44,815 nucleotides of DNA from a virus: the IMG/VR virus record IMGVR_UViG_3300044522_000629, positions 1-44,815 of that record; one strand, written 5' to 3'. The stretch's first letter is position 1. The number at the start of each line of letters is the position of its first letter. This document shows positions 4,049-29,026 of the stretch, one piece after another. Position numbers and translations under genes: made by a program. A model generated the notes under the pieces. It had not been told where the DNA came from. It saw only the letters and a program-made list of their open reading frames with translations, and made no database searches.

Positions 4049-4562
4049 ACACCCTTGGAATAGTGAGGATGCAGTTAGTAGCCTAATTGCTGAATTGATT
4101 AAAATTAAATCGTGTAAAAATGTATTGGAAATTGGCGTTTTTCAAGGTCAAACAGGGCTTGCAATGATTAACGCATTGCCTAAAAATGGCACTTACACGG
4201 CTCTTGACATTACAGAAGAAAACTATACCCCTGAATTTAAAACCAAATTAAAGAAACATACTTCTTTAGTTGGTAATTCATTAGAATTGTTGCATGAAAT
4301 ACCTAATAGAACAGTTGACTTAATATTTATTGATAGCGTTCATGAATATGCGCACCTTAGTAAAGAGTTCAAAATATGTGAGAATATCATTAAGCAAAAT
4401 GGATTGATTGTACTACATGATTCTATACTATTTCCTGGAGTTGCTCAATTTGTGAAGGAGTTAAAAGGCAATAAAGGATTTGAAATCTTGACACTTGAAA
4501 CTCCAGAGGAGGGCGACCGTACCCCTAGTGGATTAACTATTATTAAATGCTTATATCCGTAA
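4041..4562 (+). CDS. SAM-dependent methyltransferase (Methyltransf_24-like)
   Basis: A 173-residue class I methyltransferase. Motif I (VLEIGVFQGQTG, residues 28-39) binds S-adenosylmethionine; the acidic LDITEE (55-60), DLIFIDSVHEY (93-103) and LIVLHDS (122-128) are the arrangement seen in O-methyltransferase/Methyltransf_24 proteins that act on sugars or small molecules. No DNA-methyltransferase catalytic motif (NPPY, DPPY or PC) is present, so a surface-glycan or small-molecule substrate is more likely than DNA. It lies with a second, FkbM-type methyltransferase, consistent with modification of host or virion glycans. Confidence 0.8.
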   Translation: MSKHPWNSEDAVSSLIAELIKIKSCKNVLEIGVFQGQTGLAMINALPKNGTYTALDITEENYTPEFKTKLKKHTSLVGNSLELLHEIPNRTVDLIFIDSVHEYAHLSKEFKICENIIKQNGLIVLHDSILFPGVAQFVKELKGNKGFEILTLETPEEGDRTPSGLTIIKCLYP

Positions 4563-4566
4563 TCTT

Positions 4567-5896: not shown

Positions 5897-6793
5897 TTAA
5901 CTAAACCTATCTAAATCCTTCTTAGGTACTATCTTTTCACTTACAGGTATTATTTGGTGGTTACATTGCCACCCACCCCTGTAAGTGAAAATAGTAGTTG
6001 TATTTGTTCCTGCAATCATTCCACCGCCTTTGTGCAACTTCGTTTTACAAGTATTCCATAATGAAGGCGTTTCTCCCCAATGTTCCACCTCTGTAACGTG
6101 AAAATATTTATCAACACGATCCAAACAGAAACACCTAGAACTTGTTTTTCTACCCCCTTGGTACTTATACCATTTAAGTCCTAAATCATCACTGACAGTC
6201 TTAATATAGTTAGCTGAATATTGATTTAATGAGTCCGTAGCAATCTGTTTTACATTCTTCATTAAGTACCCTAAATTCTCTTTATCCCCAACTATCTTAA
6301 CTTTTAAATCTTGGATTAACTCGGTTAAATTTGAACCACTTGTGACTGACTTACTAAGGTAGTCAGATATAGGATTAATGATGTCATTAGATACACCTGC
6401 ACCCAATAAACTTTCGGTTGTAGTGCTTACCGAGTTATTTAATATTGCTTTGAATAGTTCGCCTTTCCCGTTAAAATCTGAAACTATGGTACTGAAATAA
6501 CTATCAATTAATGTCTTTGTTTCTTCAAAACTATTAAGGTAAGTATTTACGTCTTGCTTATAATCGTCATTTAAAATAATTGCGTTTAATTTATTCTTTA
6601 CTTTTTGAATCTGTTTAAGGTTTTCGACACTTGTTTTAATGTTGCCATTCGCAGTTTGAAGCTTTGATAATTCAATGCTTAATTCATTGAATATAGCTTT
6701 TTCAATTGATGGTATAGATTTCTCTACACTATCAATTGAATTTTGCATACTGTCGAAAATCTGACTTATTAATTCGTCTTGGTTAGATGGCAT
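5897..6793 (-). CDS. MuF-like head morphogenesis / minor capsid protein
   Basis: A 298-residue protein following the portal gene with an 11-base overlap, the standard place of SPP1 gp7/Mu gpF-type minor head proteins that enter the prohead with the portal. The long helical N-terminal part (1-200) is followed by a compact Cys/His-containing end: RCFCLDRVDKYFHVTEVEHWGE (220-241) and GWQCNHQIIPVS (274-285), which matches the metal-binding C-terminal core of the phage Mu F domain. No toxin domain is fused to it, unlike some MuF proteins. Confidence 0.8.
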   Translation of the reverse strand: MPSNQDELISQIFDSMQNSIDSVEKSIPSIEKAIFNELSIELSKLQTANGNIKTSVENLKQIQKVKNKLNAIILNDDYKQDVNTYLNSFEETKTLIDSYFSTIVSDFNGKGELFKAILNNSVSTTTESLLGAGVSNDIINPISDYLSKSVTSGSNLTELIQDLKVKIVGDKENLGYLMKNVKQIATDSLNQYSANYIKTVSDDLGLKWYKYQGGRKTSSRCFCLDRVDKYFHVTEVEHWGETPSLWNTCKTKLHKGGGMIAGTNTTTIFTYRGGWQCNHQIIPVSEKIVPKKDLDRFS

Positions 6794-8540
6794 TTATTGG
6801 ATTAATAGCTTGTGTAATTACCTTGTTAGTATCTTTGTACTCTTGTGCATACTTATTAATCAATTCTTTTTTCTTGCTTAAATCCCAGGTTGCAAAGTCT
6901 TTGTTTTCACTAAATGCACGCTCAACAAAAGTATTAATAAACGAATGAGTTATTAATGTCACAGGATTAAAAGGTGTCAAAGCGTTCATTGTCATAATAT
7001 CATCACTTGTCATACCTCTTAAGGCATCTAACAAGATAATATTTTGTTGATATGCCATTTCTTTAGGGCTCCCTTCATATTTCTTAGAAATGTAATCCAT
7101 CTCCATTGATTCAATAATAGAACTACTAATACCGCTTTGAGTAGCTTTACCAATTTGTTCCTCAATAACCGAAGCAGTAACAATATCAAAATCGTTAGGG
7201 ATATTAATAGTTGGCAACTGCTCATTAAGAATAACTTCATTGAACTCAAGCAATTCTTGATACCTTAATCTGTTTATTGTCTTAATGATAAACGGTAAAT
7301 AACGCCCAAAAATATCACTTGAAATATTGCTTAAAAATTGGTGCGTTTGGTCATAGTCATAAGCCTTAGAAACACCACTTTGATCAGTTGGACTTTCTGC
7401 TAAGAACTCCATATTAACAGCTCCCAAACCTTTTTTAATTAAGTTTTCAATGTCTTTAGAAAGAAACTCAACAGGTTTTAAATCCTTTTCAATATACTTA
7501 ACAGGCGCCCAACTTGGTATAGCTGAATCCTCTCCACTCATTGCAGGTCTTACCTTTGTAATTCCAAAAGGCGAACCACTACTAAAACCTTCACCGCCAC
7601 ATGATGAACATGATGATGTTGTATTTCTTCCAAATGAATTTAATCTAGTTATATTCCCTGTTCCGTTGCAACTTGTACATTCATTTTGCGTGAACTCTAC
7701 TCTTTCAGGATAAAGATGTTGTTTGATGGTTACATTCTTGTCAATGTTTTCAAGCAAAGCTTGGTCAAAGTCTGGAATGATACCAGCAATCCAAGATTCA
7801 TGATAAATATCGTCATCTTCACTTGTCATTACACCACCATTTTCAATGCAAGGCACGAAGCCAAGATTGTGTGCGTATAATAGAATGGTTACATACTTTT
7901 CTTTGACATGGTCACGTTCTAATAGATAGTAATTAACAGTATCGACTACTAGCCATTCATTTTTCTCTTGTTCAATAATTAAAAGGTCATCATCATAATA
8001 TTTTACCTTTGTGATTGAAAAACTATAAGGGATGGGCTTAATATATTCGTTCGTTGGTTTGTCTTTATATTCCTCTAAATAGTCGTCGTCTAGCACATAT
8101 TGAGGCGCCATCACTACAACACCATTTGAATCAGTTAAGTAGTTTTTAATCTGAAAATTAAAGAACCATTGAATCAAACTGTTATATTTTGGGAACTGCT
8201 CAAAAAGATAAGTGTAAAGTGTTTCAGAATCCTTTATTTTAGGACTGTTTTTTTCACTAGCTGTAATAATTAAATCCCTTGCTTTTTGAATTTTAGCAAT
8301 TGCGTTTTGAATTTTTTTATAAGGGGCTTTAGTAATTGCCCTATAATTATCTTTTTTATATTTTATTGCCCATTCAGGCTCACTTGGTTGGTACGTAACC
8401 ATCATATCAAGCGCATCGTCTACTTTGCCATCTGAATGTCTTTTAAGGCTACGGTATTCTTTCACCTTAATTTCTTTCAGTTCTTTATCGTGGTCTTTAT
8501 CGATGTACTTTTCAATAAATGCTTTTGTTCCAACTTCCAT
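6783..8540 (-). CDS. Portal protein with an inserted DnaJ-like zinc motif
   Basis: A 585-residue portal protein, the dodecameric ring through which DNA is packaged and ejected. Support comes from length, the overlapping MuF-like gene, and portal-like segments such as the stem/wing region with PAMSGEDSAIPSWAPVKYIEKDLKP (331-355) followed by a helix and TDQSGVSKAYDYD. Unusual: residues 288-318 carry CxxCxGxG...CxxCGGxG (Cys 288, 291, 311, 314), the zinc-binding pattern of DnaJ cysteine-rich domains, presumably a structural zinc clamp. Its start lies 3 bases from the glycosyltransferase stop, so it is part of the same transcript. Confidence 0.8.
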   Translation of the reverse strand: MEVGTKAFIEKYIDKDHDKELKEIKVKEYRSLKRHSDGKVDDALDMMVTYQPSEPEWAIKYKKDNYRAITKAPYKKIQNAIAKIQKARDLIITASEKNSPKIKDSETLYTYLFEQFPKYNSLIQWFFNFQIKNYLTDSNGVVVMAPQYVLDDDYLEEYKDKPTNEYIKPIPYSFSITKVKYYDDDLLIIEQEKNEWLVVDTVNYYLLERDHVKEKYVTILLYAHNLGFVPCIENGGVMTSEDDDIYHESWIAGIIPDFDQALLENIDKNVTIKQHLYPERVEFTQNECTSCNGTGNITRLNSFGRNTTSSCSSCGGEGFSSGSPFGITKVRPAMSGEDSAIPSWAPVKYIEKDLKPVEFLSKDIENLIKKGLGAVNMEFLAESPTDQSGVSKAYDYDQTHQFLSNISSDIFGRYLPFIIKTINRLRYQELLEFNEVILNEQLPTINIPNDFDIVTASVIEEQIGKATQSGISSSIIESMEMDYISKKYEGSPKEMAYQQNIILLDALRGMTSDDIMTMNALTPFNPVTLITHSFINTFVERAFSENKDFATWDLSKKKELINKYAQEYKDTNKVITQAINPINAI

Positions 8541-8543
8541 GAT

Positions 8544-9464
8544 TTAATATTTTACACGTTCTTTAAGGTAATCTCTTTTGTCAACCCATAAAAACGGATT
8601 CCGTACATTTTGATGTTGTGCATAGTTCCATTTTACATGGTCATTGTACAAGTCTTTCAATCCCTTCGACATGATATGTCCTGCCATGCTTATAAAAAAG
8701 TAGTTCTTTTCTATCAAGCCCCTTTCAGTAGGTTTTACACCTCTTTTTTTCCCTTCATCAACAATCTCGCTCATGGGGTAAAAAAATATGTCTTTATACG
8801 GATTTTCAACCTTGAAATTAAGGTTTAATAAAGCCAAGCTGAACGCTAATTCATCGGGCATACTATCAGCCCAATCTCTGAATTGAAAATCTCTTGTAAT
8901 GAATAAGTCTTTAGCACGTGCAAAAATTTGTTCGGCTTCTTTTGATTTTTTAAAATACAGAAATGAACTTTGCAAGTGATAGTAGTAGGCATCTTTTTTT
9001 AATTTAAAATACTTTCGTAAATCTCTAACCGTTTCACCCTCTTTAAACCAAAAATTACTATTGTCGCTATCAACTGGGTAATGTGCATTTGGGTGGTATA
9101 AGGTAAAACCAAAGTTTACGGCTTTGTAAGTATTGAATAAATCATTTACTTTTTTGTTCTTAATCCAAATTGAGTCACTATCAATATACACCGTTTCATC
9201 AAATGGACTTAGTTCGTAAATCATTGTCTTTGCCAATGGTATTTCACGCTTGCCATTTATAGTGTAGTCTTTTTCATCTACTTCGATAAAATGATTAAAG
9301 TATTGCTTTTCAAAGATATTAAACTTATCTTTTACTCCTGCATTGCTTACTAATGCAATTTGAGCATCAGGATTTGATACCCTGATGCTCATTGCAAGAT
9401 TAAACGCCATTTTACGATAATTATCATGCCCAAGGGCAACAATAATAACTCCTTTATTCTCCAT
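8544..9464 (-). CDS. Glycosyltransferase-like protein (GT-A fold, GT8-like)
   Basis: A 306-residue protein with a Rossmann-like N-terminus (GVIIVALGHDNYRKMAFNLAMSIR) and the DxD metal/nucleotide-sugar site YIDSDSIW (93-100), as in GT-A nucleotide-sugar transferases such as family 8. No signal peptide or membrane segment, so it acts in the cytoplasm. It is placed between a tail gene and the portal gene in a tight operon, so it is made late with virion proteins. Inferred role: glycosylating a virion protein or host surface precursors. Exact sugar and acceptor unknown. Confidence 0.75.
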   Translation of the reverse strand: MENKGVIIVALGHDNYRKMAFNLAMSIRVSNPDAQIALVSNAGVKDKFNIFEKQYFNHFIEVDEKDYTINGKREIPLAKTMIYELSPFDETVYIDSDSIWIKNKKVNDLFNTYKAVNFGFTLYHPNAHYPVDSDNSNFWFKEGETVRDLRKYFKLKKDAYYYHLQSSFLYFKKSKEAEQIFARAKDLFITRDFQFRDWADSMPDELAFSLALLNLNFKVENPYKDIFFYPMSEIVDEGKKRGVKPTERGLIEKNYFFISMAGHIMSKGLKDLYNDHVKWNYAQHQNVRNPFLWVDKRDYLKERVKY

Positions 9465-9489
9465 TTTAATTGTTAGTTTTTAGGGAGAA

Positions 9490-10014
9490 TTAAACAGTGA
9501 ATAAAGTTGATGGACTTGTATAAGGTGTAGGCATTTCCATTTCTGCCCATTTAACAGTCACATTAAAGTTGATACCCTCTTGTAAGTTGTCAGTAATTGG
9601 CAAAGTAGAAGCTAGTTGAATCCCTTTAGTTTGCCCCCAAATTAATGATTCAGTAGCAAAGAAAACATTGTAGTTATTACTTGCTAAAGCAAATTCATTA
9701 TAGAATGTAACGTTGTTTTTAACTGTATAATCCATGTAAGTTAATACGTGGTTTCTACCTGTTAACTGTGCCGAATTATCTCCAAAACCTGTAGATTCAA
9801 CAACAACTCCACCATCATAAGCACCTCTTACATTCTTAATAACTAATGCATCGCCTGAAGCAATTAAAGCATTCCATTCTGAAGCGCTTGAAGGGTCTGT
9901 AATAGTTGCTGTTTTTTTCTTTAAAATAAGGTGTCTTACCCTTCCATTCTCGATGTTCCCACAATCATCTGCTACATAGTCAGGTATTGCTTGGCAATCT
10001 GTGTAAATACTCAT
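9490..10014 (-). CDS. Putative tail tube / major tail protein
   Basis: A 174-residue, cysteine-poor, beta-rich protein with segments like RVRHLILKKKTATITDPSS and a final strand-rich GINFNVTVKWAEMEMPTPYTS. Size, composition and a private candidate late promoter (10049-10093) suggest a virion protein made in quantity, such as a tail tube subunit. No motif proves this; the gene order differs from the usual one in which the tube gene directly precedes the chaperone and tape measure. Confidence 0.5.
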   Translation of the reverse strand: MSIYTDCQAIPDYVADDCGNIENGRVRHLILKKKTATITDPSSASEWNALIASGDALVIKNVRGAYDGGVVVESTGFGDNSAQLTGRNHVLTYMDYTVKNNVTFYNEFALASNNYNVFFATESLIWGQTKGIQLASTLPITDNLQEGINFNVTVKWAEMEMPTPYTSPSTLFTV

Positions 10015-10036
10015 AATTAATTATTTTTTTAAGTGT

Positions 10037-10771
10037 TTATAAACAATTCGAATTTACGAAGTTGTAATTTGATGTACTTAAGATTGTGCCACCTTGAGCC
10101 AAAGAGTAACGGTCATTGTGTTTAATGCTGTATTCTGCTTTTTTTACAAATGATTCTCCATTGATAATTACGCTATCGTGAATAAATGCTAGATTGATTT
10201 TTTCATGTTCAAATCTGGGTATGTAATCTGTCAAAAACTGTCTATTATCCTTAAGTGTAGAACTTAGTTTTAATATAGAACCGTTTGACTTTTCGTAGGT
10301 TGTACTTGTTTCTTCAAATGCGTATTCATGCCCAAATTGAGTGCTTACATAAGCATAGTTTGTATAATTGGTATAATCGACTGTATCAAATATTTCATTG
10401 TTAACATACTCAATTTGTACCACCTCATCATTATACTTAGAACTAACATATAAGATTTCACTTTCTGCGATTACGTCTAATGGTTGGCTATCAACTATAT
10501 TTTGTTGGTTGGTATAAATATAAGCATGAAGGCATTTATTATATAGGTTAGTATAAATTGACAAGTCAAAACTCCATTTATATCCCGTTCCTGTTGCCGT
10601 TCCTAATGCTTCATAAATTACCGTATTTGTTTCGTCGAAGAAACCCAAATAAGGGGCGTCACCATCATATTCTATCTGCGTAACAAATACACCCCATGTC
10701 GGATACTTTTGTTCATAAGGGGCAATATTTACCCCTACTATCTTAGTGTATGGATATAGAGTATCAGCCAT
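10037..10771 (-). CDS. Hypothetical tail protein
   Basis: A 244-residue protein rich in Tyr, Thr and beta-strand-like segments. Its stop/start junction with the upstream gene shares one base (10771), so the two are co-translated. Located between the distal tail region and the putative tail tube gene, it is inferred to be a virion protein; no family recognised. The final third (FIHDSVIINGESFVKKAEYSIKH) reads like part of a beta sandwich. Confidence 0.6.
   Translation of the reverse strand: MADTLYPYTKIVGVNIAPYEQKYPTWGVFVTQIEYDGDAPYLGFFDETNTVIYEALGTATGTGYKWSFDLSIYTNLYNKCLHAYIYTNQQNIVDSQPLDVIAESEILYVSSKYNDEVVQIEYVNNEIFDTVDYTNYTNYAYVSTQFGHEYAFEETSTTYEKSNGSILKLSSTLKDNRQFLTDYIPRFEHEKINLAFIHDSVIINGESFVKKAEYSIKHNDRYSLAQGGTILSTSNYNFVNSNCL
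10049..10093 (-). promoter_or_regulatory. Candidate late promoter P-late4 for putative tail tube gene
   Basis: Minus-strand GGTGGCACAA (10093-10084), a 27-base spacer and TAAATTCG (10056-10049; one base off TAnnTTTG). It lies inside the 3' end of the upstream coding region and its box ends 34 bases before the ATG at 10014. It has one change in the activator box and one in the -7 box relative to the best sites, but the spacing is identical, which is why it is listed. Confidence 0.4.
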
Positions 10772-11601
10772 TAAGCTATTATATAACTGAATGAAAATTG
10801 TAAAATAACATTATCAGCCACTACCGTAGTAAGTGGCAAGACTGTTATAGTTAATCCATTAACTACTGAATAATTACTGCACAAAGCAGGATGAGATGTG
10901 TAATTGCTCCCGTTAATTCTTATCACCGAAGCAGTCCCCATGATATCAAGTGATACCCCGTTTTTTATCCATCTGTCAGTTTGGAAAACCATATCAATAG
11001 TATCGTTAATGATGATACCTGTAGCAATAAAATGAAACTCCCCTGACACGGTTGCCATGTTGCCATTCCTTACCCAAGATAAATTGTGATAATCAAATGT
11101 TGCACCGGTAAGCGCAGGTGCGGTAATAAATATACCATTTGGGTATGCTCCAGCTAAATAAAGGCTTTCTTGGTTGTAATCTAATCCAAAAGGAACAATT
11201 ACCATGTCGGTATGAGTACCACTACCGCCAATCTCGTATATCTCAACTGTTATATTTTGATTATCAGGGGTGGCAGTTATATTACCTAAAATGTAGTTCA
11301 ATCCGCTGGCACTTGAAAATGCTTTAATTGCAATATTACCCTCTGTTGAATAAGAATGATATGGCAAAGCAATTGTTTTTGTATCACCGACTAATAAGGT
11401 GTTAAGGTTAAATGAAGAAGCTGAATTTATCTTTCCTTCGGGGTCGCACCATGCAGTATCAAAGTCCGTTACACTTGATTTTACTTTTCTTTGGTTTTCT
11501 GTGCCACCTGACCAGTTATTGTACGAACCAATAACATTGTTTATTTTCGTTACCGCTGCAGACCATAAGTCAGTACCGTATATTTGTGTCCAAACTGCCA
11601 T
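10771..11601 (-). CDS. Hypothetical tail/fibre-like protein
   Basis: A 276-residue protein, low in charge and rich in Gly, Ser, Thr, Asn and aromatic residues, typical of beta-rich virion appendage proteins. The C-terminal half (from about 165) alternates hydrophobic and polar residues (GNMATVSGEFHFIATGIIIND, then NVILQFSFSYIIA), like a beta-sandwich receptor-binding or fibre head. No catalytic motif. Grouping with the large tail gene and the SprB-like protein suggests a tail-tip part. Confidence 0.6.
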   Translation of the reverse strand: MAVWTQIYGTDLWSAAVTKINNVIGSYNNWSGGTENQRKVKSSVTDFDTAWCDPEGKINSASSFNLNTLLVGDTKTIALPYHSYSTEGNIAIKAFSSASGLNYILGNITATPDNQNITVEIYEIGGSGTHTDMVIVPFGLDYNQESLYLAGAYPNGIFITAPALTGATFDYHNLSWVRNGNMATVSGEFHFIATGIIINDTIDMVFQTDRWIKNGVSLDIMGTASVIRINGSNYTSHPALCSNYSVVNGLTITVLPLTTVVADNVILQFSFSYIIA

Positions 11602-11613
11602 ATATTTTTTTAA

Positions 11614-11982
11614 TTAATAGAAACTATTTACTGTACAATTATAAAAATTTGCCATTCTTAAACCTGTATCAATTATATCTTGAACGGTTGAATTAGGGTA
11701 ATCACCGCAATCAACATTTTCAAATAATTCAATACCTACGTACCCAATTTTACCAAACCTATCTAATACTTGAACTAAATATTTACCTGTTGGTAATCCT
11801 GTAAATTGATTACTTGCTTGTTGTGTTCCTCTGTTAATTGAATAAAGATATGGCGCAGTACCTCCGCTTACAACTACCGTAATAGTTCCATTATCAACTC
11901 CTATTGAGGGATTGACATTTATGGAAGTAACAGTTAAGGACTGCACTATAAATTTACAACTATTAGCTTTAGAAATGTACAT
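11614..11982 (-). CDS. Small tail protein with SprB-like immunoglobulin-type repeat
   Basis: A 122-residue protein whose residues about 16-85 match the SprB-repeat pattern: NGTITVVVSGGTAPYLYSINRG, then FTGLPTGKYLVQVLDRFG. SprB repeats (PF13573) are found in flavobacterial surface adhesins used in gliding. A single repeat in a phage tail-tip operon suggests a carbohydrate- or surface-binding Ig-like module. Its start and the upstream stop share base 11982. This is one of the clues for a Bacteroidota host. Confidence 0.7.
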   Translation of the reverse strand: MYISKANSCKFIVQSLTVTSINVNPSIGVDNGTITVVVSGGTAPYLYSINRGTQQASNQFTGLPTGKYLVQVLDRFGKIGYVGIELFENVDCGDYPNSTVQDIIDTGLRMANFYNCTVNSFY

Positions 11983-14222
11983 TATTCAACGTAGTCAGAT
12001 TCAACATAGGGGCATTCAACATAAATAAGGTCACAAGGTGATTCATTGCCAAACATTCTTATCAACTCAATTTCTGCCATTCCTTCCGTTGGGGTAAAAG
12101 TAAGCATTTTAATAAAGCCACGATGTTCTATTGTGCCATTCTTTGACGCTGAAATGTAACCGCTTGGACTTGATAGAATGTTGTTAAACAATTGGCTAGT
12201 CATAGGATAAGTGTATTTTATGCTTATCGGCTCAATTATTGGAGCGTTTTGCTCGTTGTTTGCATCATCCCAAGCTAAGTTTTGATTCTCTGAAAGGATC
12301 TGATTGTTGTACTTATCTGTGCAACTTCCATTTAATTGTGATTGGAAAAGGTAATTGGAAACGCCATTTGCAAACTTCGCAGAAACTCCCGTGATTTTTG
12401 CATACGCTCCACTTAGTAATTGATTCCATTTTAACAACATCCTTGCAGGCGTAAGCCTTAGATTGTACCCAGTTTCTGGGCTTAAAATGTTATTGGTTGC
12501 GCTGAAATTCTCATTTTTTTCAGCAATGTTTAATGATGTCGCAATCCCTGATACATTTTCAGTCCTGTTTGTGCATATCAAAAAATTGTCATCGTCAAAC
12601 TTCCATGATTGCGTTGACGTGTTTATCAATTGTTGTCTACGTGTGAACTCAATAGCGTAGTGGTCGGTGATATACTTACAAACCTTCACGAATGCTTTTT
12701 TTACGGTCGTTATTGGTAGGTTGTAATTGTGCTGTGTTGCGAATCCATCGAGAATATTATTTTTGTCTGTTCCTTCCTCTGTACCGTATTTCTCAAACCC
12801 TATCAATGCAGTATTGTAAATCATTGATTCATTGCTTGATACGGTTATTTGCTTAATATTAAGCATTTCAGCTATTTGATTATCCCCGTCATAAAAATAG
12901 TCAATAGGCTCAACTTTTATAACCTCGTTATCTCCTTTCTGCAGAAGTCCCAACCCAAGGCAATGAATTGCAGACAATGATGTGAATATGTCGGTTAATG
13001 TTGTTAATATAGGTTTGTCAAAGTCGCGTATATTGAACCCATTTGTTAATGCTGTGAATGAACCACAACCGTTTGCGCCATAACCTATATCTTTTCTACC
13101 TAGAAAGTTGCTTTCAAATGCTACTTGTTTATCAATAGTCGCCTGTGCGACACGCTCAAAGCATTCGTGTATAAGGTAAGTCTTTGCCGTTGTCGCAGGT
13201 GCTACGGTTTCAGATTTAAATGTGACGTCTTGGACTGTTGATGAGTGTTCCCATTCTACTACTCCACTTCCGACTCCTTCAAGCCATATAAACCTGACTC
13301 TGTAAAAAAAAGAAACATAATCATCTTGTGCCAAAGTTATATTAATAGTACCATTTTCATTCCAATTATTAATATATGTAGTTTCTACACTTATATATTC
13401 TTCCCAGCTTCTAATATCAGACAAATCTAAAAAAGGATTCCCATTTTTATAACAAACAAGAGTTATATTCATTTCAAAATCTCTAGCATAGACTTTAAAT
13501 TTTGTTTGAGAAACAATATTATAATCAATTATGTAATCTCCAGCATAAAAAGCTTTGAATTGTGCTACACTTTGCCACCATATTGGATTTGAACCAACAT
13601 TTCTAGTTATTGAAAATAAAGAACTATCTAATCCACTATCTAAGTCGTCAGACTTTAATAATAACCACAATGGAATAGCTAATGCTTGATTGTCTATATC
13701 ATCCATGTTTAAATCTGCCTCTAAACCTATTGAATCTTCAAAAACTGTTGTCAATACAATAGCCTTGCTGTGCATTGTCATTTCATTGTCTTCGAGTGGG
13801 GCTAATGTTTTGCCTTCAATTTCAATAGTTTCAGAAAAATTAATAAGCTTGTCAGCATTGTTTTTAATTAGCATTGAATTGTTGCTATCTTCTAAATTTA
13901 CCTTGCAAGAACAATACCCATTAAATAAGTCTTGAAATCTTGACAAGTTTATACGACCTACAAACATTGTTTCATATTCGTACGAAGCATTGCACCGTTC
14001 TTCAATTCTAAGCGTTAAAACATACTCAATACCGCTATTATAGAAAGCATCTTTAATGATATTATATCCTGTTCCAACAAATTCTAAATCGGTTGAAAAG
14101 GTTACAAATATACCGTGAAAATTTTCATCCCTAGCAAGTGTAAACCTACATTTATCCCACCCTATCGGCTCGTCAATAACCGTTTCAATATCTCCGTCAA
14201 TGATTGTAAATCTAAATTCCAT
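11982..14222 (-). CDS. Large tail-associated protein (distal tail / baseplate-like)
   Basis: A 746-residue protein directly after the tape measure gene (no gap: stop of one, start of the next), the position of distal-tail and tail-associated proteins in siphophages. The N-terminal 130 residues (FRFTIIDGDIETVIDEPIGWDKCRFTLARD, MFVGRINLSRF) look like the beta-domain proteins that cap the tail tube; the rest is mixed beta with aromatic-rich strands. I do not see a peptidase or lysozyme motif. Function by position only. Confidence 0.7.
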   Translation of the reverse strand: MEFRFTIIDGDIETVIDEPIGWDKCRFTLARDENFHGIFVTFSTDLEFVGTGYNIIKDAFYNSGIEYVLTLRIEERCNASYEYETMFVGRINLSRFQDLFNGYCSCKVNLEDSNNSMLIKNNADKLINFSETIEIEGKTLAPLEDNEMTMHSKAIVLTTVFEDSIGLEADLNMDDIDNQALAIPLWLLLKSDDLDSGLDSSLFSITRNVGSNPIWWQSVAQFKAFYAGDYIIDYNIVSQTKFKVYARDFEMNITLVCYKNGNPFLDLSDIRSWEEYISVETTYINNWNENGTINITLAQDDYVSFFYRVRFIWLEGVGSGVVEWEHSSTVQDVTFKSETVAPATTAKTYLIHECFERVAQATIDKQVAFESNFLGRKDIGYGANGCGSFTALTNGFNIRDFDKPILTTLTDIFTSLSAIHCLGLGLLQKGDNEVIKVEPIDYFYDGDNQIAEMLNIKQITVSSNESMIYNTALIGFEKYGTEEGTDKNNILDGFATQHNYNLPITTVKKAFVKVCKYITDHYAIEFTRRQQLINTSTQSWKFDDDNFLICTNRTENVSGIATSLNIAEKNENFSATNNILSPETGYNLRLTPARMLLKWNQLLSGAYAKITGVSAKFANGVSNYLFQSQLNGSCTDKYNNQILSENQNLAWDDANNEQNAPIIEPISIKYTYPMTSQLFNNILSSPSGYISASKNGTIEHRGFIKMLTFTPTEGMAEIELIRMFGNESPCDLIYVECPYVESDYVE

Positions 14223-17117
14223 TTATGATAGGTATCTATTGTTTAAACTTTCTTGTTTTAAATTTTCAGAATAAAGATAAGTCTTAAACCCTTCTTTATC
14301 CAATGAAATGTGATTCTTTGGCATGCCTCTTAATTCTCTGGCTAAGCTGTCAGTATTAAGGTTTACGTTTGAAATCCTTTGACCTGATATCATCATATTT
14401 GCTAGTTCTGGGCTTAGTTCTTTACGTCTTATGCTTTGTAATAATGGCTTAAACTTAGTTGTCTCTTCTGCTGTCATTACTGATTCTCCTTTTGACAACA
14501 TCGCATGAATTTCATCGCTCGTTCCTGTTCCTTTACCTTGTAAATCAATTACCCCTTTTGCAAATTTAGGGGTAGGCTGTGAGTTTACTAAACCTGCTTG
14601 TATAGCACCACTTGCGATAACCAATGCACTTAATGCAATGCCTGCAATACCACCTTGACCGTAAACTTTTGCTACTCCTTCCGCTGTACTTATCGCGATG
14701 TTAATTAATGCTATTTGTTTATTTTGCTCAAATTGTTTTCTCTTTATTTTAGCTTCTTCCGCTGCATACTTTTTGGCAATAGCATCTTTTTTAGATTGGT
14801 TTCCTTCCGCTAGCTTCAACTCCCTTTCTTCTTTATCCTGCAAATCTATCAATATAGCTGAATTTACATTTGCTTGATATTGGTATATGGCGTTAATACC
14901 TTGCTTCAAAACATCAACTGTTTGTTGTGCTATTTGTTTTCGTTCTTCTTGTTTCTTCTTATCGTCGTCAACTATTTTTTTGTTTGCATCCTCATTTAAT
15001 TTTACTTTTTCTTCTGCAATCTTGCGCTCTAATGCAATATAATCTTCACTGTTTAATGTTAATAATGATAGCTTTTCTTCGTCTGCTCTTATTGTTTCTT
15101 CAAGTGATTGTTTAGCAAATTCAGATTCTATTTTTTCACGTTCTTTTTGTTTTTCTTCTATTGTTAAATTATTAGATTCGTATAATTTTATTAATGTTTC
15201 AGCGCGCTCTATTCCTATTTTATCCTGTTCAATCGAATTTTGGCGGTCTAGTGTTTTCTTTAAATTCTCCTCATCTTTTAAATGTTGGTCATTTGTTGCT
15301 TTACTCCATTCCTCATTGGCTTTTTTTCTTGCTTCAAGTATTTTCTTGTCTGACTCAGCTATTTTTACCCCTAATGTATCAATATTTACAATAGTGCTTT
15401 CTTGGTCTTGTTTTTGTTTAGTGTTAAGGATGTTGTAATACTTGGTATAAATTTCAACACGTTTATAATTAAAGTCATCCTCAATTCTTAATATATCAGT
15501 TTCGTTTGCTCCAGCATTAGTCGCCTTTTGTTTTGCGATTTGTTCCTCATGTCTTAGTAAATTGATAGCATCATCAACTATCTTTTTTTGCGCTGATTCA
15601 CGGGCTTTGCGTTGCTTTTCCGTTTCTTTTTCCTCTTCCTTTGCTACTTCATCAAAATATTTTTTTCTTACATCTTCCAATATTTTTTGATGTAATTTTG
15701 TTTTTTCTATCTCTGCTTTTTGAGCAATAACAAGTCTTGTATTTTTATCGAACTCGGTTTTATCACTTAATGTAGCTACCGAATGAAGCCTATCCAATAA
15801 AATACTTCCTTCTTCATGTTCAATGTATTTTCTTCTTTTTTCTTCTAATTCTTTTAATTTATCTTGTTGTGTTTTTAGTAAATTAGCCTTTAAAGACGTT
15901 TGGTCATTATATCTTTCTTCAATAGCCGTTCTTTCATCTACGCCATTTTTTTTGCCTAAATCAATAAACTTCTTATAATCTTCTTCTACATATTTTTGAA
16001 CTGCTCTTGATTTCTTTTCAGCTAAAGACTTAACAGCATCTTCTTCAGTTTCCGCCCATTCATTTAACTTATCTACCACTTCACCTAATGTACTAACTAT
16101 TGACTTTAATATACCACTATTCCCATTTCCAAGTTTTACCATGAATTGATCCCACGAATCACCTAAGTTTGAAATAGTACCCCCTAAAGTTTTAGATTGA
16201 GCATCCATTAAACCAGTAAACTTACCTCCATTTGTAGTTAGGTTTGTAAATGCTTGGTCTATTTCTTTAAATCCAACCTTTCCCTCTTCAACATATTTTT
16301 TTAATGCTAAACCACTAATACCTGTTACTTTTGCAAGTTCTTCCCACATCGGGATACCTCTATTGGTAAACTGATTAATATCCATCGTCATGGCTCTGCC
16401 TTGTGTTTTAATCGTACCAAATAGGTAAGCTATATCTCCCAAAGGAGCGCCAATACCAGCACTAACATCTCCTAGCTTTCTAAGTGTTTTTTCAATATCA
16501 CTTGAAGCAATACCAAACGCTAAAAGTCTTTTAGTAGCTTCTGCTACCTCTGTTAATTCAAATGGTGTAGTCTTAGCAAATTGAACAAGTTGCGACATTA
16601 ATATGTCTGCTTGTGCTTTGCTTTTAAGCATTACCTCAAATGACTTAGTAAGTTGTTCGTTTTTTACTGTTGCATCTAAAACTGACTTACCAAATGAAAT
16701 TATAGAACCTACGGCAAACGCCCCTGCAATGGTTGAACCTATGCCGCTAAATCCTGACTTTAGCTTTTCTGTTTGTTTGTTTGTATCTGTTAATTTTACC
16801 CCTAACTCCTTTGCTTCACTTTGTAAAGCTTGCATTTTTTGCTTGTAAATATCAAGTGTTTTACCATCAAATGTTTTACTAGCTTGATTGCTTATTTTTT
16901 GATATTCTGCTTGCAGTTGGTTAGTCCTATTAATTACCGAACCAATAGACTTATTTAAGTCGGCAACCGAAGTTTTAGCGTCTGTTGATTGATTTTTTAA
17001 AGCTGTTGTAGCTTTTTCAATCGAAGTTGTAAGCCCATTGTATTTTACTTTTGCTGCATCAATATCAGTTGAATCAACTGAAAACACTGTCTTAACTACT
17101 TTAATATCGGTTGCCAT
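14223..17117 (-). CDS. Tape measure protein
   Basis: A 964-residue protein that sets tail length and is ejected ahead of DNA. Residues about 130-345 form the TIGR02675-type tape measure domain: LTKSFEVMLKSKAQADILMSQL, FAKTTPFELTEVAEATKRLLAFG, MTMDINQFTNRGIPMWEEL and TLGGTISNLGDSWDQFMVKLG. A long charged coiled coil (about 380-800, rich in Glu/Lys/Gln) follows, then a hydrophobic alanine/glycine-rich segment (about 830-880) likely to enter the membrane, and a short C-terminal region. It is preceded by the chaperone frameshift pair and followed by the distal tail gene, the canonical order. Confidence 0.93.
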   Translation of the reverse strand: MATDIKVVKTVFSVDSTDIDAAKVKYNGLTTSIEKATTALKNQSTDAKTSVADLNKSIGSVINRTNQLQAEYQKISNQASKTFDGKTLDIYKQKMQALQSEAKELGVKLTDTNKQTEKLKSGFSGIGSTIAGAFAVGSIISFGKSVLDATVKNEQLTKSFEVMLKSKAQADILMSQLVQFAKTTPFELTEVAEATKRLLAFGIASSDIEKTLRKLGDVSAGIGAPLGDIAYLFGTIKTQGRAMTMDINQFTNRGIPMWEELAKVTGISGLALKKYVEEGKVGFKEIDQAFTNLTTNGGKFTGLMDAQSKTLGGTISNLGDSWDQFMVKLGNGNSGILKSIVSTLGEVVDKLNEWAETEEDAVKSLAEKKSRAVQKYVEEDYKKFIDLGKKNGVDERTAIEERYNDQTSLKANLLKTQQDKLKELEEKRRKYIEHEEGSILLDRLHSVATLSDKTEFDKNTRLVIAQKAEIEKTKLHQKILEDVRKKYFDEVAKEEEKETEKQRKARESAQKKIVDDAINLLRHEEQIAKQKATNAGANETDILRIEDDFNYKRVEIYTKYYNILNTKQKQDQESTIVNIDTLGVKIAESDKKILEARKKANEEWSKATNDQHLKDEENLKKTLDRQNSIEQDKIGIERAETLIKLYESNNLTIEEKQKEREKIESEFAKQSLEETIRADEEKLSLLTLNSEDYIALERKIAEEKVKLNEDANKKIVDDDKKKQEERKQIAQQTVDVLKQGINAIYQYQANVNSAILIDLQDKEERELKLAEGNQSKKDAIAKKYAAEEAKIKRKQFEQNKQIALINIAISTAEGVAKVYGQGGIAGIALSALVIASGAIQAGLVNSQPTPKFAKGVIDLQGKGTGTSDEIHAMLSKGESVMTAEETTKFKPLLQSIRRKELSPELANMMISGQRISNVNLNTDSLARELRGMPKNHISLDKEGFKTYLYSENLKQESLNNRYLS

Positions 17118-17120
17118 AAT

Positions 17121-17842
17121 TTACTTTTTATTAGCTTGTTTTTCCATTTCCTCCAAATAGAGGTGGTACTCATAAATGCTTAACCTTCTAATGCTATGGA
17201 GTTCTGTAATGCTTCCTTTTGCAAGATTAATTTTTTCCCTAAATCGCCCTTCAATACCTCTGGTGAAAGATTGAGCAAGATATTGTCTATTTGTAGAACC
17301 GTTAATTGTCTTACCTCGTGGTTCATTTGCGTAAAGGTCTTTAAATCTATTTTTGAGAAATCTAAAGAGGGTATTAAGTTTTGTAAAGGCAAGACTTGGA
17401 AAAAATCCATTAACTTATCTTTTTTCCATTCTTTCAATTTCTTTTCATTATATGCAAAGTCGTAAACTAAAGGACTTTCATTTTCATCAAAGAAAACAAC
17501 TGAAGCAAGTTTAAGTAATAAATCAGGGTCACTAACTAGGCTAAGTCGTAATTTTAGATCGTGGTTTAATTTAACTACCTCGGTTAATTTACCGTTATTG
17601 CAAGCTGTTTCGATTGCTTCATTATGAGCCAATAGAAAGTTTCTATCACATTTCATTGATAACTCATCGTAATAGCTTACAGCCGTAAATGCTCTTTCGC
17701 ATGGAATATTAACATAATCTGATAATTGATAGTAATTCTTGCCGTTATGCTTAAATGCAAATTCAATCACGTAATTAGTGTCTTTATTCCATTTAGGGGG
17801 CTTAGCACTAAAGAACTTTGTTAGTTTTTCTTTTAGTTTCAT
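17121..17842 (-). CDS. Tail assembly chaperone long form via -1 frameshift (gpGT-like, predicted)
   Basis: If ribosomes on the 17180-17842 gene slip back one base near its end, they read on in the -1 frame to the TAA at 17121-17123, 3 bases before the tape measure start, giving about 240 residues. The extra tail is protein-like (ELHSIRRLSIYEYHLYLEEM, ending EKQANKK) and has the Tyr/Glu-rich style of the T part of tail chaperone pairs. A run of six A's on the minus strand (17236-17231) is the best slip candidate, though it is not a perfect X XXY YYZ heptamer. Confidence 0.6.
17180..17842 (-). CDS. Tail assembly chaperone, short form (gpG-like)
   Basis: A 220-residue protein directly upstream of the tape measure gene. 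Position, acidic/hydrophobic helical composition and the in-phase overlapping -1 reading frame match the gpG/gpGT chaperones that coat the tape measure during tail assembly. N-terminal segment KWNKDTNYVIEFAFKHNGKNYYQLSDYVNIPCERAF is strand-rich, the remainder helical. It overlaps the preceding gene by the ATGA signature. No enzyme motif. Confidence 0.65.
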   Translation of the reverse strand: MKLKEKLTKFFSAKPPKWNKDTNYVIEFAFKHNGKNYYQLSDYVNIPCERAFTAVSYYDELSMKCDRNFLLAHNEAIETACNNGKLTEVVKLNHDLKLRLSLVSDPDLLLKLASVVFFDENESPLVYDFAYNEKKLKEWKKDKLMDFFQVLPLQNLIPSLDFSKIDLKTFTQMNHEVRQLTVLQIDNILLNLSPEVLKGDLGKKLILQKEALQNSIALEG

Positions 17843-18096
17843 TTTATTCTTTGGGTATCAATAATTGATTCTATTTTATTTACCATTAATGTAGATAATA
17901 ATGATTCATTTGATTTAAATATTATTCTTGTACCTTTTTCAATACCTTTCTCAAAATATTGATTTATAAATAAAGGCTTTTCATAAACTATAACTTCTCT
18001 TATCTCATATAAATCAATGGGGCAATCTCCTATTATTTTCTCATGTTCAATAGTTTCTTCATTACAAAAAAAACATGGTATTTTTATCTTAAACAT
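17839..18096 (-). CDS. Small hypothetical protein with CxxC
   Basis: An 85-residue protein starting MFKIKIPCFFCNEE, with a CFFC pair (residues 8-11) and one later cysteine (25), so possibly a metal-binding mini-domain. Overlaps the chaperone start by 4 bases and sits 3 bases after the upstream gene, inside the late tail operon. Function unknown. Confidence 0.6.
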   Translation of the reverse strand: MFKIKIPCFFCNEETIEHEKIIGDCPIDLYEIREVIVYEKPLFINQYFEKGIEKGTRIIFKSNESLLSTLMVNKIESIIDTQRIK

Positions 18097-18099
18097 AAT

Positions 18100-18375
18100 C
18101 TATTCTTTATAAGTTAAACTCAATAAACAACTATAAACCTCGCACAATGCGAGTGTTAGAAATCCACACAGGATACTTTGCCATGTAAATCCGCTTGCCA
18201 ATGATACCACAATCCCGTACCACCAACCCATACACGTTGGACATCCTATAACTGGTTTTAAATACCATTTTGATTTGTATTTATGTAAAGATTCAAATAT
18301 CATTCCTTCCTCGGTACTTTGATAAACGGTTATAACAATAGCCGTAGCGAGTATAACACTATCGTAAATACTCAT
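18100..18375 (-). CDS. Small membrane protein
   Basis: A 91-residue protein with hydrophobic segments at about 5-20, 50-65 and 65-85 and a conserved-looking centre KPVIGCPTCMGWWYG (40-54), reminiscent of small DUF1360-type membrane proteins of Bacteroidota phages. Overlaps the upstream gene by 17 bases. Its position among tail genes does not by itself suggest lysis; role unknown. Confidence 0.6.
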   Translation of the reverse strand: MSIYDSVILATAIVITVYQSTEEGMIFESLHKYKSKWYLKPVIGCPTCMGWWYGIVVSLASGFTWQSILCGFLTLALCEVYSCLLSLTYKE

Positions 18376-18724
18376 AAGTAGCGGTTGAATTAGAGTTAAT
18401 AAAAGTTAGGACAAAGCAATTATAAGCCACACCACCAAAGGTTAATTCAATAGGTGTTTCGTAGTCTGAAGTGTCATAGATTACTAAAGTAAACTCCCCA
18501 GCATTGCAGTTAAATAAATTAAGAGGTAATTGAGATAAATCTAAAACGCATTCATTTGAAACAGCCGTATCAATTAATACATCTAAAGAGTTGAATTTAT
18601 CCCATATCTCAAAAATATAGTTCGTTCCTGTTTCAAGTCCGTTTATTTTAATCTCTTGTAAGCATTGCGACATAGGAACTGCATTATGGCAGTTACATGT
18701 GTCCTGTTGTGTTAAGTAACTCAT
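18359..18724 (-). CDS. Hypothetical small virion protein, first gene of tail operon
   Basis: A 121-residue beta-rich protein with five cysteines, several near the N-terminus (CNCHNAVPMSQC). The segment LETGTNYIFEIWDKFNS followed by FTLVIYDTSDYETPIELTFGG looks like a small beta sandwich found in Bacteroidota phage structural operons. It begins a transcription unit with a strong candidate late promoter; the ATG lies 4 bases after the -7 box, so the message would be leaderless or nearly so. Confidence 0.65.
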   Translation of the reverse strand: MSYLTQQDTCNCHNAVPMSQCLQEIKINGLETGTNYIFEIWDKFNSLDVLIDTAVSNECVLDLSQLPLNLFNCNAGEFTLVIYDTSDYETPIELTFGGVAYNCFVLTFINSNSTATYEYLR

Positions 18725-18728
18725 AAGC

Positions 18729-18773
18729 CAAAAATAAGCCTTAATAATTATTACTTACCTACATTGTGCCACT
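18729..18773 (-). promoter_or_regulatory. Candidate late promoter P-late3 for tail operon
   Basis: Minus-strand AGTGGCACAA (18773-18764), a 27-base spacer and TATTTTTG (18736-18729), a full TAnnTTTG match, followed by GGCTTATGAG; the site at 1742-1786 has the same box followed by GGCTATGAG. It begins right at the end of the terminase large-subunit gene and would drive the chaperone, tape measure and tail genes. Confidence 0.6.
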
Positions 18774-20059
18774 TAACTATGAAGTGACTTTGTAAAGTTG
18801 TAATGGAATGTTGAGTAGTAGTAACGTTGGCAATCTAAATTGTGTGTTAGTTTGCTGTCAGACTTATCAATACTATTGTCCTCTAATACCTTAACGTTTA
18901 GGTTATCTTTAATCGAATAAACGCATTTAGGATGAATGTAGCATTTAATATGCTTTTCAAAAATGCTATTGTACAACTCCCTGGACTTCTTATGTGAAGG
19001 GTTTGCCCTCGGTGTCTTAATAGCCGTAATAGGTAGGCTAAATTCACGTCTAATGATTGAGTACATAGAATCTAAGGCGCTTGTACTCTTTTCCCTTGCC
19101 CATCCAGAAGCATCGCCAGTAACGTATATTTGACTTTGATAATAATCTTTAGTTTTTATTAACTCAATGACCGAATATATAGAACTATCTTTTAAACGGA
19201 TTTCATCAATCTGATAAATGAAATCGTGGGTATGTTGAAACACCGCACACGTCGCAGGGTTAACATTAAAGTCAAAGGACAGGTAAACGGGCAATCCTTC
19301 TTGATATACAGCTTCCTCACTTACGTTTCTTGTAGGTTCAAAAGCGTATGCAAAAAGGTTTTCATTTTCCCTTACTTCCCAATCGCCGTTCACCATTCTT
19401 TCAAATATTAATGATGTTGTGGTTGCTCTTAATTCCTCAATAGCTGTTTCTGGAATATATGGATTATCGGTAATCTTGGAAGGTATATAAGCCCAGTTCG
19501 AGGGTAAGGTATTGTCCTTCCACCTGTCGTAAAACTTCTCTTTTACCCATCCTGTTGATGGGTTGCAAGTTGCCAATATTATTGGCTTAGGTTGGTTAGG
19601 TATTAAATGAGAATAAGAAAACACCCTACTGTTTACAACATTGAAAGTGTCTTCTTGACATTCGTTTATTTCGTCAAATCCTGCCCCGTTAATCTCTAAA
19701 CCTCTAAACCTGTTTAACTCCTTATCGGTGTCGTAACTTTCAGCCATAAAAAGTATTTGGCTACCATTTTTATAATAAACAATATAATCTTGATTATTAA
19801 ACTTTTCAATGTAGTGATTTATACCCATGTGGTATAATTTAAAAAATGAGGGTATTAGCGTTTTTTTAAGTGTTGGTAAAGACTTTCTAATCATTACCCA
19901 CTTACTACCTTCATGCTTCATTGCTAGGCTGTGCATCATTAGACAAAGCCAAAACGACTTACCACCTCGAATGGCACCTCCGTACAAGATAATATTCTTA
20001 TCATGCTGGCAAGCTATCCCCTTAGCTTCTATCTGTTTAGGAGTAGGAGTTATTACCAA
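18773..20059 (-). CDS. terL: Terminase large subunit
   Basis: A 428-residue packaging motor ATPase/nuclease. The Walker A motif is GGAIRGGKS (27-35), Walker B is GAGFDEIN (125-132) with the catalytic Glu, and the coupling motif is ATCNP (163-167). The C-terminal RNase H-like nuclease starts at YLSFDFNVNP (about 264-273), with Asp residues at DFN and TGDASG. The best start is a TTG at 20057-20059 that overlaps the small-subunit gene; the next in-frame ATG is beyond the Walker A motif. Confidence 0.95.
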   Translation of the reverse strand: MVITPTPKQIEAKGIACQHDKNIILYGGAIRGGKSFWLCLMMHSLAMKHEGSKWVMIRKSLPTLKKTLIPSFFKLYHMGINHYIEKFNNQDYIVYYKNGSQILFMAESYDTDKELNRFRGLEINGAGFDEINECQEDTFNVVNSRVFSYSHLIPNQPKPIILATCNPSTGWVKEKFYDRWKDNTLPSNWAYIPSKITDNPYIPETAIEELRATTTSLIFERMVNGDWEVRENENLFAYAFEPTRNVSEEAVYQEGLPVYLSFDFNVNPATCAVFQHTHDFIYQIDEIRLKDSSIYSVIELIKTKDYYQSQIYVTGDASGWAREKSTSALDSMYSIIRREFSLPITAIKTPRANPSHKKSRELYNSIFEKHIKCYIHPKCVYSIKDNLNVKVLEDNSIDKSDSKLTHNLDCQRYYYSTFHYNFTKSLHS

Positions 20060-26836: not shown

Positions 26837-29026
26837 TCAATTATTAAAATCAAGCATCAAGACGCTGTTTTTTTCTTCAATACAAGATTTGTGATTTTTT
26901 GCATTAATAGTAAAATAACTTTCTTTCAATTCTATTGATATAGATTTTCTATTCATTTTTAAGGCTGAAAAACCTTCGCTACCAATGCCACCAAATGGAC
27001 TTAATACAGTTTCGCCTTCATTTGAATAAAGATGTAATATCCGTTCAATTGTATCTAATTGTAGCGGGCAAATGTGTTTTTCATCGTTACCATCACGACC
27101 ACTCCTATATTGCAATGTTCTTGAATAATCAATGTCATTCCATACAGGTGATGCATATTTTTGCCATAAATCTACTGGCAGATAATCTCTTTTAGTTGGG
27201 TCGGTATCTTGATGAGTAATTGGTGTTTCGTTATCACCTTCATTTCTGAAAAACAAAATATAATCTGGGATACCTACCCTTGTCATACAGCTATCTTTTT
27301 TAATAGTTTTATGTAGCAATCCTAAAGCTTTAGTTCTTTGCATTTCAGTTACTGGATTCTTCCAAATAGTAGCACGAGAATGATATATAAAACCGTTTTC
27401 TTGAAACCAATCAATTAACATACCTGAAAAGTCACGCAATCCAATATACCCTTCTTTACCTTTTTGAATCGGCAAATCCATACAGTGAATTGCACAAATA
27501 CGACCATTTTTAAGAGTTCTTTTTAATTCAGGTATTAAGAACTTAAAATGTTCTTCAAATTGCTTGTAATTAGCAACATTACCCATATCTTCTTCTTTAT
27601 CAGAATATACATACAATTCAGCAAATGGAGGGCTGAAAACAACAATATCAGCACAGTTATCAGGTAATTTTTTAGTTTCTTGAACGCAATCACCATTAAT
27701 TAAATGGTAGTTATTATTTTTAATTTCTTTATTCACGACTTTAAATTTAGATTTTGCACTTTTATAATTTGATTCACTTGAATATTTAGCCATTTCTTGA
27801 ATCATTTCAATATGTCTTTGATGTTTTTCAATTATTGATTGTCTAACATTTAATTGACTTTTAGGAACTAATATATGAATAGTTACTTTATTAGTTTGAC
27901 CGAATCTATAACAACGTCTTACAGCTTGATAAAATGCTTCAAATTTGAAATCATAAGACATAAATATCATTTGGTCACATTGCTGGTAATTCATGCCAAA
28001 ACTTGCAATACTTGTTTTAGTTACAAGTGTTTTAAATTCTTTTCGAGCAAATCCATTTAAGTGTTTTGCTTTATATTCAGGACTATCAGAACCTTGAACA
28101 TTTACTGCGTTATCAATTAATTTTACAATTGTATCAGTTTCATTATTTTTTAATCCCCAAATAATAAACTGTTTATCATTTTCGCTTACTAATTCAATTG
28201 TTTTTTTTACCCGTTCATCAAAGCTACGATTCAAATCTTTATGTAAATCAGTTGCTGAAATTGCAACGTCACCAAATAGATTGTCAGTATTATTTTCAAC
28301 TTCGATAAAATGCTCAATAAATTCAATTTCGGGTAAATCATATCCAACGTGTTCGAAACCTAAAGTTTTAGGATTATCACAAGCCATAGACCATGTACAT
28401 ACATATTTCCAAAATGAATCTTTAGCGTGTTTTCTTAACCTCCATTTGCTTGTTTCCCCACCATCATGAACAAAGTACATTGCTAACATTTCAAGATAAG
28501 ACATAGCACCCAAAAATTCTGAATGTTGTCCTAGTTCCATGTGGTCATTTGGAGAAGGTGTTGCAGTACAAGCTAATTTATATGGAGTTCCTTTGAATAA
28601 ATCAATTATCATGTTTGACAATTTCCCATCACGACCTTTTAGAATTGAACTTTCATCAAGGACAACGCCTGAATAAACTGAAACGTCAATATTTTTCAGC
28701 TGGTCATAGTTAGTAATATCAAAGCAATCTAATGAAATGCCAAATTTGATAGATTCAAGTTTTGTTTGTTCAACTACTGCTAATGGTGCAAGTATTAAAA
28801 CTTTTTTATTAGTATAGTTGTAAACTGCTTCACTCCATGATAATTGCATTAAAGTTTTACCTAATCCACAATCGAAAAATAGAGCAAATCTACCTTTTCT
28901 CAAAGCTGTAATAACTGCATATTTTTGAAAGTCAAATAAATTAGTATTTAATTCACTTTCATTTATTTCAAAACCACTTTCTACAAATGTTTTTTTCTTA
29001 GTTTCTAAAAACTCTTTATATTCCAT
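26837..29026 (-). CDS. SNF2-type helicase fused to DNA methyltransferase
   Basis: A 729-residue bifunctional protein. The N-terminal half (about 30-410) is a superfamily 2 helicase/translocase: Walker A FDCGLGKT (51-58), LDES (123-126) in place of DExH, TATPSPN (154-160) and QAVRRCYRFGQ (367-377) as the arginine-finger motif VI of SNF2-like proteins. The C-terminal half (about 440-729) is a SAM-dependent DNA methyltransferase with catalytic SPPF (465-468) and FGGIGSEGFSA (678-688) as motif I; the catalytic motif before motif I is the beta-class order of N4-cytosine or N6-adenine enzymes. No nuclease motif seen. Likely protects phage DNA from host restriction. Confidence 0.85.
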   Translation of the reverse strand: MEYKEFLETKKKTFVESGFEINESELNTNLFDFQKYAVITALRKGRFALFFDCGLGKTLMQLSWSEAVYNYTNKKVLILAPLAVVEQTKLESIKFGISLDCFDITNYDQLKNIDVSVYSGVVLDESSILKGRDGKLSNMIIDLFKGTPYKLACTATPSPNDHMELGQHSEFLGAMSYLEMLAMYFVHDGGETSKWRLRKHAKDSFWKYVCTWSMACDNPKTLGFEHVGYDLPEIEFIEHFIEVENNTDNLFGDVAISATDLHKDLNRSFDERVKKTIELVSENDKQFIIWGLKNNETDTIVKLIDNAVNVQGSDSPEYKAKHLNGFARKEFKTLVTKTSIASFGMNYQQCDQMIFMSYDFKFEAFYQAVRRCYRFGQTNKVTIHILVPKSQLNVRQSIIEKHQRHIEMIQEMAKYSSESNYKSAKSKFKVVNKEIKNNNYHLINGDCVQETKKLPDNCADIVVFSPPFAELYVYSDKEEDMGNVANYKQFEEHFKFLIPELKRTLKNGRICAIHCMDLPIQKGKEGYIGLRDFSGMLIDWFQENGFIYHSRATIWKNPVTEMQRTKALGLLHKTIKKDSCMTRVGIPDYILFFRNEGDNETPITHQDTDPTKRDYLPVDLWQKYASPVWNDIDYSRTLQYRSGRDGNDEKHICPLQLDTIERILHLYSNEGETVLSPFGGIGSEGFSALKMNRKSISIELKESYFTINAKNHKSCIEEKNSVLMLDFNN

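Follow-up and report, generated by a model that had tools for sequence, protein, structure and literature searches.

A Conserved, Unusually Long Dual-Coded Overlap and Putative −1 Frameshift Directly Upstream of a Phage Tape Measure Gene

Results

Two Open Frames Precede the Tape Measure Gene

We analyzed a viral DNA of 44,815 nucleotides (IMG/VR record IMGVR_UViG_3300044522_000629; the whole stretch is called the window hereafter), in which all features described below lie on the minus strand. The tape measure protein gene (14223–17117, 964 aa; phrog_9959, E 6e-95; Pfam TMP_3, E 2.6e-24) is directly preceded by a zero-frame ORF of 220 aa, here called G (17180–17842, with its stop TAA at 17182–17180). 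The −1 frame of G has no stop for 97 codons, from 17414 to 17124, and ends with a TAA at 17123–17121, leaving a gap of 3 nt to the tape measure ATG at 17117. An earlier note on this DNA had described a −1 frame continuing past the zero-frame stop to a point 3 nt before the tape measure gene, and this description is exact. The last upstream stop in the −1 frame (TAA, 17415–17417) marks the earliest possible point of entry, and any slip between 17414 and 17183 would give an open fusion. Nine nucleotides beyond that stop lies a heptamer, T TTT TTC (17399–17405, in the zero-frame phase GA/T TTT TTC), which is the candidate slip site.

The −1-frame tail, T, comprises 92 codons (PSLAFT...QANKK) and, with its stop, spans 17121–17399. 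The dual-coded overlap of 216 nt (17183–17398), where codon-position variability and substitution classes were analyzed, takes in the final 72 codons of G together with the greater part of the −1 tail. A slip at the heptamer would give products sharing 148 N-terminal residues, namely G (148 + 72 residues, 220 aa) and a G/T-type protein (148 + 92 residues, 240 aa). The peptide across the predicted T TTT TTC junction is LMDFFPSLAFTK; LSIYEYHLYLEEMEK is part of the −1-frame tail and TFTQMNHEVR is part of the zero-frame tail. The peptide SIYEYHLYLEEM, which the earlier note had suggested as a target for proteomics, is also located in the −1 tail. The note had seen only the last part of the −1 region, as the −1 coding stretch begins at 17399 and not near 17240.

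The open −1 frame exceeds what chance would give. Among 20,000 synonymous redraws of the 72-codon overlap with the codon usage of the window, only one was free of −1 stops, the mean being 6.3 stops. In 16 other genes of the window, the longest off-frame open stretches are 58 codons in −1 and 78 codons in +1. The overlap contains no ATG, GTG, or TTG in the −1 frame of the window, and no such start codon is common to all relatives.

In the region 6783–20059, the terminase gene is followed by three small genes that match no family, then G, the tape measure gene, a gene for a 746-aa structural protein, and later the portal gene (phrog_7376); small proteins are encoded at 17839–18724. The portal of the window thus follows the tape measure gene, and in the Cellulophaga and Bacteroides phages examined, the head genes precede it. 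Elsewhere in the window, a 729-aa protein (26837–29026) is possibly a helicase-methyltransferase fusion, as DNA helicase PHROGs match nearly the whole of it and DNA methyltransferase PHROGs match about residues 381–718.

A T Run Is the Only Candidate Slip Site Common to All Relatives

T TTT TTC, an X XXY YYZ heptamer in zero-frame phase, is present in phase in all 12 of the nearest genomes, including the window and 11 near relatives of G (62–96% identity), and is retained even where the preceding codon is TCT instead of GAT. More distant relatives of G, at about 30–36% identity, have a longer run. The locus L023, which was found by a search with the −1 tail at 25% identity and whose G is 31% identical to that of the window, has GGT TTT TTT TTG at the homologous FF codons. 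T9G is found in 80/80 loci related to L023, with the −1 frame open for 83–101 codons among these best 80 matches, and a profile search added another 35 contigs, and 33 of these have T9 followed by G or A and a −1 frame open across the overlap. T9(G/A) therefore lies at the homologous spot in 113 of 115 more distant contigs, and with the window counted, 125 of 127 contigs retain the arrangement; these counts derive from scans that give the best 80 matches and are not a census. The T9 of the relatives contains two overlapping heptamers (T TTT TTT and T TTT TTG).

The two exceptions are L137, which is cut by the contig end, and L161, where T8 rather than T9 together with an upstream indel breaks the zero frame; L161 is either a sequencing error or a dead copy. 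In L054, the −1 frame ends one codon past the zero-frame stop, and the conserved tail end (about the last 15 residues) is missing. A long ORF follows the −1 stop in 75/75 and 33/34 testable relatives. The distance from slip site to zero-frame stop is 216 nt in the window, and among 80 relatives, 78 have 225 nt and the other 2 have 231 nt. The earlier note had held that a −1 extension lacking conservation in relatives would speak against a frameshift, and the comparison of the overlap gave the opposite result.

Among X XXY YYZ sites, only the T run is common to all distinct sequences, both in the near group (family 1, 10/10) and in the L023-type group (family 2, 60/60). Two other sites in the window are less well kept. 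T TTA AAG, an in-phase heptamer 60 nt downstream of the T run, is present in 7 of the 10 distinct near sequences. The A6 run read as GGG AAA AAA, which the earlier note had favored, exists but is found in only 2 of these 10, window included. Furthermore, the upstream −1 stop lies 3–27 nt before the T run across distinct relatives, so entry into the −1 frame cannot be much earlier. The frameshift proposed by the earlier note is thus supported, together with a conserved −1 tail, but the A6 slip site and an atypical, non-heptamer mechanism are not; the window has a classical in-phase heptamer at 17405–17399, which all relatives of the near group retain.

We also compared folding at the heptamer with shuffled sequences in the window and five relatives, and found no consistent nearby stimulatory RNA structure. 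The window gives z = −1.85, mostly from a stem about 30 nt downstream of the heptamer, and the five relatives give z between −1.29 and +0.51. An upstream pairing of GGAAAAAA with TTTTTTCC in the window was rejected, as that stretch folds no better than shuffles (z +1.11).

Purifying Selection Acts on Both Frames of the Overlap

The variability of codon positions changes along the gene in the way expected from its reading. In family 2, mean entropies at zero-frame codon positions 1, 2, and 3 are 0.24, 0.08, and 0.87 before the slip site, 0.20, 0.32, and 0.48 in the overlap, and 0.61, 1.10, and 0.54 after the zero-frame stop. These are the patterns of the zero frame, of both frames, and of the −1 frame, respectively. 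The shift occurs at the slip codons, with reduced third-position variability beginning about at the T run. At the other end of the gene, the G start of family 2 overlaps the end of an upstream ORF (in L023, 4184–4564) by 94 nt (4471–4564), and in G codons 1–20 the first position is the most variable, consistent with a second dual-coded stretch.

Substitution counts point the same way. By simple parsimony on a tree, the overlap in family 2 shows 87 changes per 7.5 opportunities synonymous in both frames, a small class, and 194 per 114.2 that alter only the −1 protein, a ratio of about 0.15. In the zero-only control, doubly synonymous changes number 61 per 10.9 and −1-only changes 908 per 183.6, a ratio of about 0.88. 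Zero-frame-silent changes that add a −1 stop are 2 per 16.7 in the overlap and 238 per 38.2 in the control. The tail of G is selected too, since changes that alter only the zero-frame protein amount to 131 per 134.7 in the overlap (48 per 243.2 in the control); changes to both proteins amount to 97 per 329.7. In family 1, silent −1 stops are 0 per 11.3 in the overlap versus 55 per 46.2 in the control, and −1-protein-only changes are 38 per 117.0 versus 151 per 144.8. At the level of sequence, these counts show that both frames of the ~72-codon overlap are under purifying selection.

The −1 tails of the two families match with E 3e-8 in a single comparison (25% identity). With the zero-frame proteins held fixed, the −1 tail match between the window and L026 was equalled in none of 2,000 codon redraws, and those of five other between-group pairs in none of 1,000 each. 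By these comparisons the −1 tails are homologous between divergent groups. In the reverse test, in which the −1 proteins were held fixed, the likeness of the zero-frame tails was equalled in 0/1,000 redraws for L120 and for L136, and in 9 for L134 and 20 for L178, which is suggestive; in two of the six pairs it is explained by the −1 proteins (L026, 166/2,000; L176, 288/1,000). Of the two tails, the −1 tail is the better conserved in four of the six pairs from distant groups, and support for selection on the tail of G comes mainly from the within-family counts.

Predicted Protein Architecture

AlphaFold2 models of moderate confidence were built from 31-sequence alignments, each frame being modelled apart. 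In the model of G (mean pLDDT 70), a beta hairpin and helices are predicted at residues 26–141, followed by a low-confidence stretch at 151–165 and a helical hairpin at 167–219. The −1 tail is predicted to be helical (mean pLDDT 76). The slip, at residues 146–148, would fall just past the N-terminal domain of G, so that one C-terminal helical unit would be exchanged for another.

Neither product could be matched to a known family. Profiles of named chaperone families in Pfam, PHROGs, and NCBIfam gave no match at useful E-values, as might also be seen with distant membership, and a sequence search of solved structures gave none. The best BFVD fold matches by Foldseek (G, E 0.19; −1 tail, E 0.21) are not significant, and those by VIA-align are mostly helical matches of residues 160–220 with Z below 7, a level the tool calls common. 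Neither of the two G proteins used had a tblastn match in the published phages searched, and no relative of G was found in the bacterial genomes scanned. The tape measure protein finds its best matches among Bacteroides and Riemerella phages, which suggests a Bacteroidota host for the window.

Discussion

A −1 Slip Best Explains the Two Predicted Products

We consider it very probable, from the conservation of the heptamer and of both frames, that one gene gives rise to G and to a 240-aa G/T-type product through a −1 ribosomal slip on T TTT TTC. Most ribosomes would pass the heptamer in the zero frame and make G. In a minority, both tRNAs-Phe would re-pair one base back on the T run and translation would continue in the −1 frame, giving the same 148 N-terminal residues joined to a different, mainly helical tail of 92 residues. 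The final 72 codons of G therefore do double duty, being coding in the −1 frame as well. If the pair works as G/GT does in lambda, the N-terminal part common to both products may bind the tape measure protein while recruitment of tail-tube subunits may fall to the −1 tail, and the slip frequency would set the ratio of the two products. Ribosomal slippage, its frequency, and the chaperone roles are points that we infer.

The −1 frame could in principle be a chance opening with no function, as off-frame stretches of tens of codons do occur in the window. However, the rarity of such an opening among synonymous redraws, its retention in nearly all contigs, and the selection on both frames leave this idea with almost no weight, and conservation rules it out. 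A separate small gene, started within the overlap or after termination at the G stop, would fit the annotation of some published Bacteroidota phages, where a short gene stands before the tape measure, but it would have to do without a conserved start codon, and −1 constraint already covers the stretch directly after the T run; we regard it as highly improbable. Nearly as improbable is a slip elsewhere in the shared open stretch, for example at GGG AAA AAA or T TTA AAG. The whole of 17414–17183 is open and T TTA AAG is a proper heptamer in the window, but neither site is general in the near group, family 2 has no X XXY YYZ site common to its 60 sequences other than within the T run, and the third-position signature of the −1 frame starts about where the T run lies.

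T runs as long as T9 are known substrates of transcriptional slippage in bacteria. RNA polymerase slippage, yielding mRNAs with one extra U, might thus make the two products, and T9 is present in 113 relative contigs; other examples of transcriptional slippage are mentioned in passages of the literature (PMC5009743). The window and its 11 near relatives, however, have only T6 followed by C, which is exactly a −1 heptamer and short for the polymerase, and the heptamer phase is kept in every near genome, so we find polymerase slippage quite unlikely as the general explanation. In the T9 relatives, polymerase slippage may act besides ribosomal slippage. Finally, the gene may have two products without being a tail assembly chaperone, which seems unlikely. 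Its products resemble known chaperones in neither sequence nor fold, and the usual major-tail-protein neighbor was not recognized upstream, where the three small genes without known family and then the terminase (18773–20059) lie. Against this, what marks G/GT-like pairs is a −1 product together with a position directly before the tape measure gene (PMC5009743, PMC3091744). The name tail chaperone, used by the earlier note, is thus backed by gene position and two-product architecture, and finds no echo in similarity to named chaperone families.

The −1 ribosomal slip would amount to a C-terminal domain swap, as predicted from the sequence, and not to a lambda-type extension near the end of the gene. 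We think it likely that this is an ancient dual-coded swap, in which the tail domain of each isoform is written over that of the other in ~72 codons and the minor product is an alternative protein without the C-terminal helical hairpin of G. The means of entry would have drifted apart, being ribosomal at T TTT TTC and, at T9, ribosomal with transcriptional slippage as a possible addition, with both proteins kept.

Comparison with Known Systems

The slip sequence of lambda differs from the T TTT TTC of the window. The locus resembles lambda gpG/gpGT in that a gene just upstream of the tape measure gene has a −1 slip and gives a shorter product plus a transframe product with the same N terminus, slip and products being predicted in the window; in lambda, the G part is the one that binds the tape measure, and the tail subunit is the partner of the T part (PMC5009743). 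Of the features of G/GT pairs, the window has the gene directly upstream of the tape measure, with the −1 stop 3 nt before its start, a conserved candidate slip site predicted to lead to a transframe product with a shared N terminus, and two predicted products under selection. A slip near the end of the gene is absent: in lambda, slippage takes place close to the 3′ end of G (PMC5009743), whereas in the window it would occur 216 nt before the stop. The PRFect paper gives mean slip-to-stop distances of 26 nt for its training phages and 36 nt for the Xu set (PMC10885494), and with a distance far above these means, the locus would work like G/GT and is classed as a variant rather than a plain member.

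Lambda GT is nearly G plus T, but the predicted transframe product of the window is without the last 72 residues of G. The lambda model, in which GT carries nearly all of G, cannot hold for such a product, and its two functions should be separable by domain. The window family offers a natural way to test where in G the tape measure binds.

P2 E/E+E′ and the Burkholderia phages KS5, KS14, and KL3 are alike in having a −1 slip at TTTTTTG and a shared N terminus, and in the passages concerned a downstream hairpin was not found there either (PMC3091744). TTTTTTG is also present, as T TTT TTG, inside the T9G of family 2. The KS5 short form has 103 aa, and the long form matches it over residues 1–87, so that about 16 aa at the end of the short form are frame-specific (PMC3091744), unlike the 72 aa, under dual selection, in the window.

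Three published phages have a −1 ORF running past the stop of the gene before the tape measure gene: Parabacteroides phage PF672P2 (L109, OP172820), with T9 105 nt before the stop; Bacteroides phage p00 (L025, BK010646), with CCCTTTT 72 nt before it; and Riemerella phage RAP44 (L024, NC_019490), with AAATTTT 60 nt before it. Unlike in the window, these candidate slip sites, each from one genome only, lie nearer the stop, and the first products gave no significant match to the G profile, which is shallow (Neff 1.8). In the regions viewed, no joined CDS is annotated in the three genomes, and short separate genes are. Published Bacteroidota phages thus appear to have unannotated examples with shorter overlaps, and long overlaps may grade into the case of the window. 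Frameshift finders that weight closeness to the stop, such as PRFect in the part of its description cited here (PMC10885494), tend, this case suggests, to miss such loci. Our literature search, which covered mainly openly available papers, yielded no description of tail chaperone genes with a long overlap coded in two frames. Together, the comparisons support the view that this locus, judged by its conservation, is an unusually long dual-coded −1 frameshift and a variant of the known G/GT-type arrangement.
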